Assembly: GCA_019119995.1 (NCBI GenBank)
Contig: DWVY01000013.1
Location: 1-64,000, forward strand
Source: Candidatus Mediterraneibacter faecavium
Lineage (GTDB): Bacteria > Bacillota > Clostridia > Lachnospirales > Lachnospiraceae
DNA: 64,000 nt
Direction: 5' to 3'
Shown: positions 2,899 through 49,654 of the stretch, piece after piece
Layout of the letters: each line of letters starts with the position of its first letter
Position numbering within the stretch: position 1 is the first letter of the stretch
The notes under the pieces: model-generated
Database searches by the model: none
Seen by the model: only the letters and a program-made list of their open reading frames with translations
What the model was told of the DNA's origin: nothing
Translations under genes and position numbers: made by a program

Positions 2899-3666
2899 TC
2901 ATTTGTCAATTATACAACTTTTTACATCCCGATACAATCGTTCTGTTTTAGCTTTTGTAAGCTTTAATTCTTCCTGGAGCCGGTTCTTATACTGTTTCCT
3001 CAAGCCCAAATCTTCAATAATCTCACAAGGTTCTTCCAAGCCGCGCAGATGCGCTTCCTGCTTCAGAAGCGTCAAAGCTGCTTTTACCAGCTGTGTTTCC
3101 ACATCCTCGGGTATATCGATGAAAACCTGTTTTTGTCCTCTGTTATGAAATTCCAGATATTCTTCAAAATCCGAGAACTTCTCCTTATATATTTTTATTG
3201 CTTTTGGATGTATTATCCTGCTTTTTTCAGTTTCGTATTCTTTTAGGCTTGAATATTTATAGTTTAAGGGATATTTCACAAGATTTGCATTGACCGGATT
3301 CATGTGGATATATCTCACACAGTTCCAGAAATACTGTTCTGTTTCTACGCATTCACTTTTAAATCTGTCCTGAAATACGTGACCGTTCCGGTTATGTTTA
3401 TAGTTGTAATATTCTGCAAATTCTGCCAAGACAATGGCTAAATAACTTGATAAGAGTTTCAGATCAACACGAATCAGAATATGAAAATGCGTTGACATAA
3501 CAGTATACGCATATATTTCAATATCTTGATCTTTAAGATGCTTCAACAGAAGCCTTATGAAATTGTTCTTCTCTCTTTTCTGCTTAAAAATAGGCTCTTT
3601 ATTAATTCCTCTCGCTATCACATGATATATGTCAGTAGCGCTTTTTCTGCGAGCAGTACGTGGCAT
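2899..3666 (-). CDS. REP-associated tyrosine (Y1/IS200-like) transposase
   Basis: MPRTARRKSATDIYHVIARGINKEPIF; HUH-type STHFHILI; CVRYIHMNPVNANLV; HVFQDRFKSE motifs. Confidence 0.92.
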   Translation of the reverse strand: MPRTARRKSATDIYHVIARGINKEPIFKQKREKNNFIRLLLKHLKDQDIEIYAYTVMSTHFHILIRVDLKLLSSYLAIVLAEFAEYYNYKHNRNGHVFQDRFKSECVETEQYFWNCVRYIHMNPVNANLVKYPLNYKYSSLKEYETEKSRIIHPKAIKIYKEKFSDFEEYLEFHNRGQKQVFIDIPEDVETQLVKAALTLLKQEAHLRGLEEPCEIIEDLGLRKQYKNRLQEELKLTKAKTERLYRDVKSCIIDK

Positions 3667-3733: not shown

Positions 3734-3768
3734 GGGGACGTAGTGAAATCGGGTTTTACTACGTCCCC
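3734..3768. repeat. REP-like palindrome, copy 2 (right flank of RAYT gene)
   Basis: GGGGACGTAGTgAAatcgggtTTTACTACGTCCCC. Confidence 0.9.
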
Positions 3769-9633: not shown

Positions 9634-9668
9634 GGGGACGTAGTAAAATTCGATTTTACTACGTCCCC
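9634..9668. repeat. REP-like palindrome, copy 3
   Basis: GGGGACGTAGTAAAAttcgaTTTTACTACGTCCCC between era and the M16C peptidase gene. Confidence 0.9.
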
Positions 9669-17197: not shown

Positions 17198-19411
17198 ATG
17201 AAACATCTTGTCATTGCAGAAAAGCCGTCCGTTGCCCGCGATATCGCGCGAGTGCTCGGATGCAGTAAAAAGACCAATTCATATATAGAAGGCAAAGACT
17301 ATGTCGTCACATGGGCGCTGGGGCACCTCGTTACCCTTGCCGATCCGGAAGAGTATGGAGAGCAGTATAAGACATGGAATCTGGACACCCTCCCCATGCT
17401 GCCCGACCGCTGGAAACTGGTCGTGATCCGGCAGACTTCAAAACAGTACCACGCCGTCAAGGAACAGATCTTCCGGAAGGATATCTCGGATATCATTATC
17501 GCCACTGACGCCGGACGCGAGGGGGAGCTCGTGGCCCGCTGGATCCTCGAGAAAGCCGGGAACAAAAAGCCGCTGAAACGTCTCTGGATCTCATCGGTGA
17601 CTGACAAGGCGATCCGGGATGGATTCGCACATCTGCGGCCTGGCAAAGACTATGAAGATCTGTATCACGCAGCAGTGGCCCGCGCAGAAGCCGACTGGGA
17701 GGTAGGCATCAACGCCACCCGCGCGCTCACATGTAAATACAACGCCCAGCTCTCCTGCGGAAGAGTGCAGACGCCCACGCTGGCAATGATCGCATCCCGG
17801 GAGGAAGAGATCAAGAAGTTTGTTCCGAAATCATATTATGGACTCAAGGCAGTTGCAAAAGGGATCCCATTCCTCTGGACAGATGCGAAGAATAACTCCG
17901 GCCGCACATTTGACAGATCCAGGATCGAACCGATCTGCAAAGGCGCGGCTCAGAAGATCAGGGTCTCAGAAGTAAAGAAGAAATCAAAGAAAACATACTC
18001 TCCCGCTCTCTATGATCTGACCGCACTGCAGAGGGAGGCCAACCAGCGGTACGGATACTCAGCAAAAGAGACATTAAATATCATGCAGCGCCTTTACGAA
18101 AACCACAAGGTGCTCACCTATCCGCGGACCGATTCGCGCTATCTGACCTCCGATATGACAGGCACTCTGAAAGAACGCCTGAACGCCTGTGCTGTCGGCC
18201 CTTACCGCAAGGCTGCGTCACGTCTCTCCATGCACGAGATCAAAGCTGACAAGTCTTTTGTAAATAATGCGAAAGTCTCGGACCACCATGCGATCATCCC
18301 CACCGAGCAGTTCGTCCAGCTCGAGCATATGTCAAATGACGAGCGCAGGATATACGACCTTGTTGTCCGCCGTTTCCTCGCCGTCCTGTCTCCTGCCTGT
18401 GAATACGAGGAGATATCCCTGACCGGGATGATCGGGAAAGAGACGTTCCGCGCAAAGGGCAGCCGGATCCTGTCCCCCGGCTGGCGCGGGATCTATGACG
18501 CGGACTGGGCAGATCTTGAAGAGGACGATAACCCGGACTTTGACAAAGACACCGGCAGGTCTTCTATGGCAGACACCGCATGGCCTGATGTCAGGGAGGG
18601 CGACGAACTTCCCGTCTCCTCACTGTCGATCACCGAGGGGAAGACAAAACCGCCGGCTTATTTTACAGAAGGCACACTGATCGCAGCGATGGAAAATCCC
18701 GCACGGTATATGCAGCAGAAAGACCGGACGCTGGCGCGCACCCTGGGGGAGACCGGCGGTCTCGGGACTGTCGCGACCCGCGCCGATATCATTGAGAAAC
18801 TCTTCGGCAGCTTCCTCATGGAAAAGAAAGGCTCAGAGATCCATATCACGTCCAAGGGGAGACAGCTCCTGTCCCTTGTGCCGTCTGATCTCAAGAGCCC
18901 CGAACTCACCGCGCAGTGGGAACTCAGGCTCAGATCCATCGCACAGGGAAAAGAATCACAGAGCAAATTCATGACAGAGATCGAGGATTACACGAAATCA
19001 CTGATCAGCCAGATCAAGAATGCAGACGGCACATTCCGCCATGACAATCTGACCCGCCGCAAATGCCCGCAGTGCGGCAAATTGATGCTTGAAGTCAACG
19101 GCAAACACGGAAAGATGCTCGTATGCCAGGACAGAGAATGCGGCTACCGCGAGACAATCTCCAGACGCACCAACGCCCGCTGTCCCGTCTGCCATAAAAA
19201 GATGGAGCTTGTCGGGAAAGGCGACGCCCAGAGATTCGTCTGCTCCTGCGGCCACAAAGAAAAACTCTCCTCATTCCAGGAGAGAAAGAAAAAAGAAGGA
19301 AAAGGCGCAAATAAACGGGATGTGGCTGTTTATATGAGGAAGCAGGCAAAAGAGGCAAAAGAACCCATCAATAATGCATTCGCCGAAGCATTTAAAAATC
19401 TGGGGCTGTAG
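17198..19411 (+). CDS. topB: DNA topoisomerase III
   Basis: MKHLVIAEKPSVARDIARVLG; ATDAGREGELVARWI; YPRTDSRYL; C-terminal zinc motifs CPQCGKLMLEV. Confidence 0.96.
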   Translation: MKHLVIAEKPSVARDIARVLGCSKKTNSYIEGKDYVVTWALGHLVTLADPEEYGEQYKTWNLDTLPMLPDRWKLVVIRQTSKQYHAVKEQIFRKDISDIIIATDAGREGELVARWILEKAGNKKPLKRLWISSVTDKAIRDGFAHLRPGKDYEDLYHAAVARAEADWEVGINATRALTCKYNAQLSCGRVQTPTLAMIASREEEIKKFVPKSYYGLKAVAKGIPFLWTDAKNNSGRTFDRSRIEPICKGAAQKIRVSEVKKKSKKTYSPALYDLTALQREANQRYGYSAKETLNIMQRLYENHKVLTYPRTDSRYLTSDMTGTLKERLNACAVGPYRKAASRLSMHEIKADKSFVNNAKVSDHHAIIPTEQFVQLEHMSNDERRIYDLVVRRFLAVLSPACEYEEISLTGMIGKETFRAKGSRILSPGWRGIYDADWADLEEDDNPDFDKDTGRSSMADTAWPDVREGDELPVSSLSITEGKTKPPAYFTEGTLIAAMENPARYMQQKDRTLARTLGETGGLGTVATRADIIEKLFGSFLMEKKGSEIHITSKGRQLLSLVPSDLKSPELTAQWELRLRSIAQGKESQSKFMTEIEDYTKSLISQIKNADGTFRHDNLTRRKCPQCGKLMLEVNGKHGKMLVCQDRECGYRETISRRTNARCPVCHKKMELVGKGDAQRFVCSCGHKEKLSSFQERKKKEGKGANKRDVAVYMRKQAKEAKEPINNAFAEAFKNLGL

Positions 19412-19416
19412 ATGCG

Positions 19417-19717
19417 AATTCGTGTTTGTCGGTGAGATACTTTGCGATAAAACATGAAACATCCGAAAATCAATCGGACACAATATGTTGATCCACGTTA
19501 TCGGGACAGGCGGGGACAGGATGCTTCCGGTTCCGGTTACAGGGCATAAGAGATAGTAATAAGCCCGTGGTGTGGCGTTAACTATCTCTAATGCCCTTCC
19601 ACAGTCACCGTCAGCCTCCTATCCCCGCCCATCCCGAAAGGTTCATCAAAGGGGCTGTATCCGACTGATTTTCTGCATTCATCCAACAGGAAGCATCTCC
19701 CCGACAATCACGGAATT
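19417..19717. repeat. Giant imperfect hairpin 1 (arms ~140 bp, loop ~23 bp)
   Basis: Complementary blocks: ttgtcgg 19426/19701; gaaaatca 19465/19666; ggcgggga 19509/19622; agggcat 19541/19591; agagatagt 19549/19581. Confidence 0.85.
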
Positions 19718-19891
19718 AGATAAACCGCGTCGAAAGGGGAACTGTATCGAAAAAGATGCTGTCTTAGGGACTGCTGTTTTTAATAAATGGTGAACCGTTT
19801 CCGGTTATGGAGATTTCTGGTTCTGCTTGTCTGTTTTATATCTGCCGGATATCTGGAATCTTAGTTGATAAAGTTCTGACTTCTTCCGGCT

Positions 19892-20207
19892 TTTAATGAG
19901 TGCTTGTTGAAGGATGACGCTGCGGCGGAAGAAAAGACTACCGACCGGATAAGACAGCGGAAAAAGATGATGCTGCATAAGCTGTGCATCGACATGGAGC
20001 GTTCCGAATACACCTTGTTCTCCATGTTAGCGATGTTAAAATGCAAGTCCCGCTGGACGAGCATTTTGATATCGCGTTACATGGATTCGAGGGGATGAGG
20101 TAAAGCGGGTCGGCACAGCGTTGCAGGATCATCTTTTTCCGCGTCCCTTATCCGATCAATATACTTTCTTCTACTGTGGCGTTAGCCTTTCGACAAACAC
20201 GAATTTA
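19892..20207. repeat. Giant imperfect hairpin 2 (arms ~150 bp, loop ~16 bp)
   Basis: Complementary blocks: cggataag 19946/20147; gcggaaaaagatgat 19957/20128 (15 bp exact); tccatgt 20021/20079; aaaatgc 20038/20061. Confidence 0.85.
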
Positions 20208-21053
20208 ATCTGCAAGTTCCGACAGGGGTTTGATCTGATAGCCCATTTCCGTCCATTTTGTCAGCAGTTCATCGAGTATCGCTGCGTTAGTAGATGATGT
20301 GCTGTGGAGCAGGACGATGGCTCCGGGATGGATCCGCCCGAGGAGTTTGGCGAAGGCTTCTTCTTCCGTCGGCTGGTCGTCCTGATACCAGTCTACATAT
20401 GCGAGGCTCCAGAAGAAAGTCTTATATCCCAGTTCCTGAGCCATTTCCAGATTAGATTCGCTGTATATCCCCCGCGGAGGACGATAGTATCGGGCCATTT
20501 CCTGACCGGTCGCATTGAGAAAAGCGTCCTCTACATCCGTCATTTCTTTTTTGAAAGAATTCATATCCGCAATCTGCGACATGTCGGGGTGATGCCACGT
20601 ATGATTGCCGACGGCATGGCCTTCGTCAACCATTCTTCTGACAAGACCGGGTTCCGATTCTACGTATGTTCCCGTGACGAAGAATGTGGCTGATACATTA
20701 TGCTTTTTCAGTGTGTCCAGTATAGGTGCAGTGTTTCCGTTTTCATAGCCGGCGTCGAAAGTGAGGTAGAGGATTTTTTCATCGGTATCCTGTGCATAGT
20801 ATGCGTCGTATCGGGCGAGCTCTTCGATCGTAGCATTGCCGTCAGGCCGTTTTCCGTTTTCGTGAAACTTCAATCCCCAGTTCCATTCAGCAGATGCAGA
20901 GACGGCTTCAGCCGGGGCAGAGGCATTGGAACTTTCATCCTGCTGTCTGCCCAGCATCTGCTCTTGCCAGAGAGCAGCTCCGGTTCCGATAAGATATGCG
21001 GCTGTAAAAAGAAATAGGAAAGAAAAGATGCGGATCAATAGCTGCTTTTTCAT
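20205..21053 (-). CDS. Polysaccharide deacetylase (PdaA-like)
   Basis: KILYLTFDAGYENGNTAPILDTLKKHNVSATFFVTG; VGNHTWHHPDM; YRPPRGIYSE. Confidence 0.93.
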   Translation of the reverse strand: MKKQLLIRIFSFLFLFTAAYLIGTGAALWQEQMLGRQQDESSNASAPAEAVSASAEWNWGLKFHENGKRPDGNATIEELARYDAYYAQDTDEKILYLTFDAGYENGNTAPILDTLKKHNVSATFFVTGTYVESEPGLVRRMVDEGHAVGNHTWHHPDMSQIADMNSFKKEMTDVEDAFLNATGQEMARYYRPPRGIYSESNLEMAQELGYKTFFWSLAYVDWYQDDQPTEEEAFAKLLGRIHPGAIVLLHSTSSTNAAILDELLTKWTEMGYQIKPLSELAD

Positions 21054-21260
21054 AATTGCTGCAATCACATAAATCAGATTTTTATAATCATATGAAATAA
21101 GAAGCGGATTTAAAACTGATATTGAAAAAAACGGTATTGGAAAACTGGCTGGAGAACTGACAAAAACTGCCGAAAACAGATGTTGAGGAACATTGAAAAC
21201 CGGCTTTTTTTCTGGTATTATAGCTATAGATAAATCTAGGATGAATCTCAGGAGGATATT

Positions 21261-35957: not shown

Positions 35958-35991
35958 ATACAAGTGGCTTACGGAAGACAGGCCACGATAC

Positions 35992-36062
35992 AGGGGATTG
36001 GTCAAATGGTATGATAGGGGTCTCCAAAACCTTTGGTGGGAGTTCGATTCTCTCATCCCCTG
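35992..36062 (+). tRNA. tRNA-Trp (anticodon CCA)
   Basis: AGGGGAT/ATCCCCT acceptor; GTCA/TGAT D-stem; GGGGT-CTCCAAA-ACCTT anticodon arm; GGGAG-TTCGATT-CTCTC T-arm; no encoded 3' CCA. Confidence 0.93.
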
Positions 36063-36067
36063 TTTGA

Positions 36068-41649: not shown

Positions 41650-41734
41650 AAAAGGGACAGGGCAAAACGCGATTTGGGACGTAGTAAAATCTGATTTTAC
41701 TACGTCCCAAATCAAAGTTTGCCCTGTCCCTTTT
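41650..41734. repeat. Composite REPIN-like 85-nt palindrome (copy 4) between convergent degV and dapA
   Basis: AAAAGGGACAGGGCAAA..GATTTGGGACGTAGTAAAATctgATTTTACTACGTCCCAAATC..TTTGCCCTGTCCCTTTT. Confidence 0.92.
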
Positions 41735-49555: not shown

Positions 49556-49607
49556 GAGTTTTTACTCCTGTAGATACAATTATTTAAAATGGGGACAGGG
49601 TGGTTTT

Positions 49608-49652
49608 GATTCGGGGACGTAGTCAAACTCAGTTTGACTACGTCCCCGAATC
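49608..49652. repeat. REP-like palindrome, copy 5 (perfect arms)
   Basis: GATTCGGGGACGTAGTCAAACtcaGTTTGACTACGTCCCCGAATC, preceded by ggggacaggg module at 49591. Confidence 0.92.
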
Positions 49653-49654
49653 AA

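Follow-up and report, generated by a model that had tools for sequence, protein, structure and literature searches.

ERIC and BOX sequences are large imperfect palindromes or modular repeats of transcribed intergenic regions. The REP, BIME and REPIN sequences that accompany RAYT proteins are extragenic, imperfect and polar palindromes, often arranged as inverted pairs with a linker between them (PMC3116915, PMC3733652). Here we describe a giant hairpin element found in 64,000 nucleotides of DNA from Candidatus Mediterraneibacter faecavium, a stretch that we refer to as the window. Similarly to REP, BIME and REPIN sequences, the element exists in dozens of copies which frequently lie between convergent genes, and, as in a REPIN, its hairpins form an inverted polar pair (HA outward on the minus strand, HB outward on the plus strand). 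However, at about 300 nt each its hairpins are ten times larger than the 20-40 nt of REP; they also differ from REP in comprising several exchangeable families with many conserved internal loops, and in that the foot of the hairpin lacks a conserved GTAG/CGTC tag. Unlike REPINs, they are not tied to the resident RAYT, and we found no cognate RAYT flanked by them. With MITEs the element shares recurrent terminal inverted repeats (15 bp, exact), a non-coding content and many copies, but it differs from them in that no parent transposase was found, no target-site duplication was obvious in the flanks inspected, and covariation on one strand keeps its internal structure. Compared with ERIC and BOX, it is larger, unrelated in sequence and lineage, and placed from stop codon to stop codon. 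It also resembles a bidirectional intrinsic terminator, being a palindrome common to two converging transcription units, yet it is far longer, multi-copy and strand-polar, and no U-tract was recognised at its ends.

Modular anatomy of the element

The element at positions 19417-20207 is a copy of this giant hairpin repeat and fills the convergent junction between topB (17198-19411, plus strand; DNA topoisomerase III-like, named in the initial annotation and by family resemblance) and a polysaccharide deacetylase-like gene (20205-21068, minus strand). The topB stop codon lies 5 nt ahead of the element start and the stop codon of the deacetylase gene overlaps the element end, confirming the initial description of a block that runs up to both flanking stop codons. 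Its left terminal motif (19417-19431, plus strand) forms an exact 15-bp inverted repeat with the right terminal motif (20191-20205, minus strand); this pairing, the exact stem block 19957-19971/20128-20142 and the other coordinates of that description were all found in the sequence as given. Hairpin 1 (19417-19717) is a module that we call alpha, and the strand which favours its structure is the outward, minus strand. Hairpin 2 (19892-20207) is a beta module favoured on the plus strand, again the outward one, and its best-conserved part is the beta core (19997-20108, plus strand), which we modelled as R1. The connector between them (19718-19891) is an unusual long variant, also present in the copies at C40:98652, C40:56325 and C43:1, in which the usual connector hairpin survives as a remnant (CTTAG at 19860-19864 and CTTCTTCCGGCTTTT at 19880-19894).

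A full copy of the repeat consists of an alpha hairpin of ~370 nt, a connector and a beta hairpin of ~315 nt. Alpha normally bears an apical hairpin of ~80 nt, which is absent from the window copy, where its position would be about 19569-19574; the usual connector is a small hairpin whose stem is variable and whose apex carries a TCGACTAAG-like motif. Typical copies are inverted pairs of strand-polar hairpins flanking this central connector hairpin. Solo alpha copies exist (L040, L047 and L129), solo beta copies occur in other genera, the complete genome of a congener, G017, has the arrangement beta'-connector-beta, and other species carry a third large hairpin type, gamma, at the corresponding gene ends (L131, L177, L182, L187-L190 and L195). 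Since alpha and beta occur separately elsewhere, they are different modules, and the initial view that hairpins 1 and 2 are copies of one unit proved wrong: they represent two distinct hairpin families which have only the end motif of ~15 nt in common. In G017, two different IS630-type transposase genes sit in element connectors (L105:1412-2683 and L106:1184-2374), and these two cases suggest that connectors are hot spots for insertion.

Folding, compensatory pairing and strand polarity

We folded both strands of each hairpin and compared them with dinucleotide shuffles. Hairpin 1 gave -127.5 kcal/mol on the plus strand (z -9.0) and -156.8 kcal/mol on the minus strand (z -15.3), while hairpin 2 gave -155.2 kcal/mol on the plus strand (z -12.4) and -134.4 kcal/mol on the minus strand (z -13.5). 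None of the shuffles matched the real fold energy for either hairpin on either strand, so the objection anticipated in the initial annotation, that folding may be no better than in shuffled sequence, fails by far for both hairpins. The outward strand yielded the better fold in nearly all full copies of the source genome.

Conserved pairing was examined in two alignments, one of the beta core (A1; 28 distinct sequences, window 19997-20108) and one of alpha (24 sequences). Two-sided changes were present at 23 of 36 pairs of the beta core and at 47 of 108 pairs of alpha. In the beta core 97.0% of the cells were paired, as compared with 83.4% in shuffles and 31-47% when the partner was slid, and in alpha 96.4% versus 89.2% in shuffles; the structures come from the same alignments, so that the slid control is biased in their favour, and the shuffles ignore relatedness, but the margin is still very large. 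Short internal loops, as read from alignment A1, stayed constant amid the changing stems (GA/GA, TTA/GTT and GTT/TAAA). The aligned copies thereby support the initial proposal of a repeated, RNA-like family whose arms vary while the pairing is kept, and its converse, decayed coding genes without conserved pairing, fails because the pairing is retained through compensatory change.

The pairing is also strand-polar. On the outward strand, G-U cells outnumbered A-C cells by 47 to 13 in beta and by 248 to 42 in alpha, an excess whose significance is overstated by binomial p-values because the cells are not independent events; in the beta pairs of G017 the strand difference was much weaker. The initial annotation had remarked that the arm differences of hairpin 1 are of the kind that would give G-U pairing in RNA of the minus strand; this proved correct throughout the aligned copies, and hairpin 2 is biased likewise on the plus strand. 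Compensatory changes as expected of a structured RNA are thus present, with the pairing kept on one strand, and selection appears to act on one strand and not on the duplex. An identical bias would arise from G-T pairing in single-stranded DNA; therefore, the strand bias points to RNA without proving it.

Copies, placement and turnover

A sequence search matched the element to more than 100 stretches of its own genome, and its end motif had 103 near-matches genome-wide compared with 19 for a reversed control. From the 2.84 Mb draft we retrieved copies at 59 further loci, the window copy excluded, some of which are two halves of a single copy broken at contig ends; copy numbers are approximate, as they derive from sequence searches of a draft. 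Within the genus, DNA matches were found in 33 of 58 species, with copies per congener ranging from none detected to dozens, and G017 (2.73 Mb) has ~32 copies, mostly 84-96% identical to a reference copy. A search of 397 genomes of the family with model R1, under strict filtering and with nine candidates scored in each genome, found the beta core in at least three of the 334 genera sampled, a lower bound because of those settings; in the two of these three genera other than the source genus the matches are hairpins at gene ends. No family match appeared in the phages, plasmids and viral contigs searched. The initial annotation had recognised no named bacterial RNA family with this architecture, and this was upheld, since the element types searched against Rfam gave nothing above the curated gathering thresholds, the sub-threshold matches being mostly to microRNA hairpin models. 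Searches of the open-access literature yielded REP/REPIN and terminator work and no account of this hairpin family. The element is a member of a multi-copy hairpin repeat family, and we have very high confidence in the existence of the family, in its pairing and in its placement; the family is previously uncatalogued and lineage-restricted.

The copies are concentrated at convergent gene ends. Among the 29 examined, 18 lay between convergent genes versus 6 of the 55 ordinary junctions in the window, a baseline obtained with similarly crude ORF calling (Fisher p 1.7e-6). Of 43 stop codons facing an element, 28 were no more than 3 nt from the element end, and 35 no more than 11 nt, taking BLAST match ends as the ends of the element, and often the stop codon was the element's own terminal TAA. 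In relatives, the 3' side of topB carries a 110-bp hairpin, a solo alpha, a truncated alpha, a gamma or a plain terminator-like hairpin, and that of the deacetylase gene carries alpha, beta, gamma or simple hairpins. Thus, one junction holds different hairpin types in different species. In most relatives whose sequence was read topB faces a GNAT gene, which in the source genome is located elsewhere, likewise abutting an alpha element; such an exchange of partners among topB, GNAT and deacetylase genes is expected if two elements recombined and swapped partners.

Near relatives have many orthologous element sites, yet the copies there generally resemble each other no more closely than do other copies compared across the two genomes. 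A signal of the site was retained only in very close pairs (97.7% for L050/L052 and 94.6% for L070/L080), and the best paralogue within the source genome was 90-98% identical. This likeness of copies within a genome is concerted evolution or repeated replacement. Deep conservation of position is not claimed because the source genome and G017 share just about 5-6 of 42 gene ends, close to the overlap that random occupancy of convergent junctions could produce.

A proposed role at transcript ends and its rivals

We tentatively favour the explanation that these giant modular palindromes are 3'-end RNA modules of convergent genes which spread by recombination, a function that we infer from sequence. 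The selected molecule would be RNA. A transcript reading through from either gene would run into the far hairpin, in the strand that favours its structure, shortly ahead of the opposing stop codon. Each hairpin may close off or shield one of the two converging transcripts at its 3' end, at a point where that transcript has not yet become antisense to the gene opposite. Spread and homogenisation would proceed through recombination or gene conversion between copies, with no dedicated transposase, as would be expected of long palindromes with their breakable cruciforms. SbcCD cuts long palindromes, which are then repaired from homologous copies. Such cutting and repair would account for both homogenisation and partner exchange and is our preferred candidate mechanism. 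The end-of-transcript function stays putative because scans of the window element picked up neither a promoter nor a U-tract terminator above chance level; none was recognised in L017 either. Also, copy numbers varying from none to dozens among congeners count against an RNA module and look selfish rather than functional. We consider it rather unlikely that the family represents a novel class of structured RNA in bacteria, in which exchangeable alpha, beta and gamma cassettes of ~300 nt would serve convergent junctions as paired transcript-end insulators kept uniform across a genome by concerted evolution.

A selfish, non-autonomous palindrome of REPIN/MITE type is a realistic possibility: an enzyme acting in trans would recognise and copy the folded single-stranded DNA, insertion at convergent gene ends would do least harm, and the structure would be selected for mobility and not for the host. 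The inverted strand-polar pair, the terminal inverted repeats, dozens of copies in species-variable number and the differing hairpin types at a single site all agree with it. The search for a mobiliser, however, speaks against it, since we found neither a parent transposon or autonomous element nor a transposase for the giant hairpins, and target-site duplications were not obvious in the inspected copy flanks. The resident RAYT-like gene (2899-3666, minus strand) is flanked on both sides by GGGACGTAGT palindromes which recur elsewhere in the genome and is, because of these short repeats of its own, probably not the mobiliser; moreover, several element-rich genomes have no RAYT-size match (G017, G029 and G033). 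Rpn (Transposase_31) genes adjoin elements in G017, where all six lie between or beside them (L107, L109, L110, L113, L119 and position 172693), but only there, as five other element-bearing genomes that we checked have none, and they were rejected as mobiliser. Reports on relatives of these proteins describe promotion of RecA-independent recombination (PMC5350276) and a role in phage defence (PMC10327210). IS630-type transposases were rejected as parent since they are present solely within the two G017 connectors, a different one in each.

The short palindromes form a family of their own, GGGACGTAGT...ACTACGTCCC, found in the window at 2815-2847, 3735-3767, 9635-9667, 41650-41734 and 49606-49654, with 11 half-site matches in the window versus 1.8 expected and about 25 places genome-wide. 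As two copies flank the RAYT-like gene, they look like its REP family. The copy at 41650 fills a convergent junction. The window also contains a tRNA-Trp gene (35991-36063, plus strand).

It is quite improbable that the elements are oversized bidirectional terminators in which both transcripts would stop at the connector stem and the long hairpins would be carried along as tolerated baggage. The placement between convergent genes fits such a role, as do a CCGGC stem in the connector with a short T-run after it and the plain terminator-like hairpins that some relatives have at this junction. Nevertheless, scans recognised no intrinsic terminator at the connector, no GC-rich stem with a U-tract was found at the connector or ends of the window copy and L017 (L116 has one weak site), and baggage would not retain strand-biased compensatory pairing across 100 pairs. 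Decayed coding sequence or chance palindromes, to which the short ORFs of the gap might point, have virtually no standing, refuted as they are by the pairing statistics and opposed by the fold z-scores and the dozens of copies.

Whether or not the hairpins act as the 3'-end RNA modules that we favour, the family is informative in several respects. Dozens of structured elements positioned at convergent stop codons amount to a natural replicated experiment on how converging transcripts are ended. The family is also informative on the persistence of long palindromes, and its members break draft assemblies, as about 39 of the 132 contig ends of the source genome fall inside copies, and are a plausible source of rearrangements.
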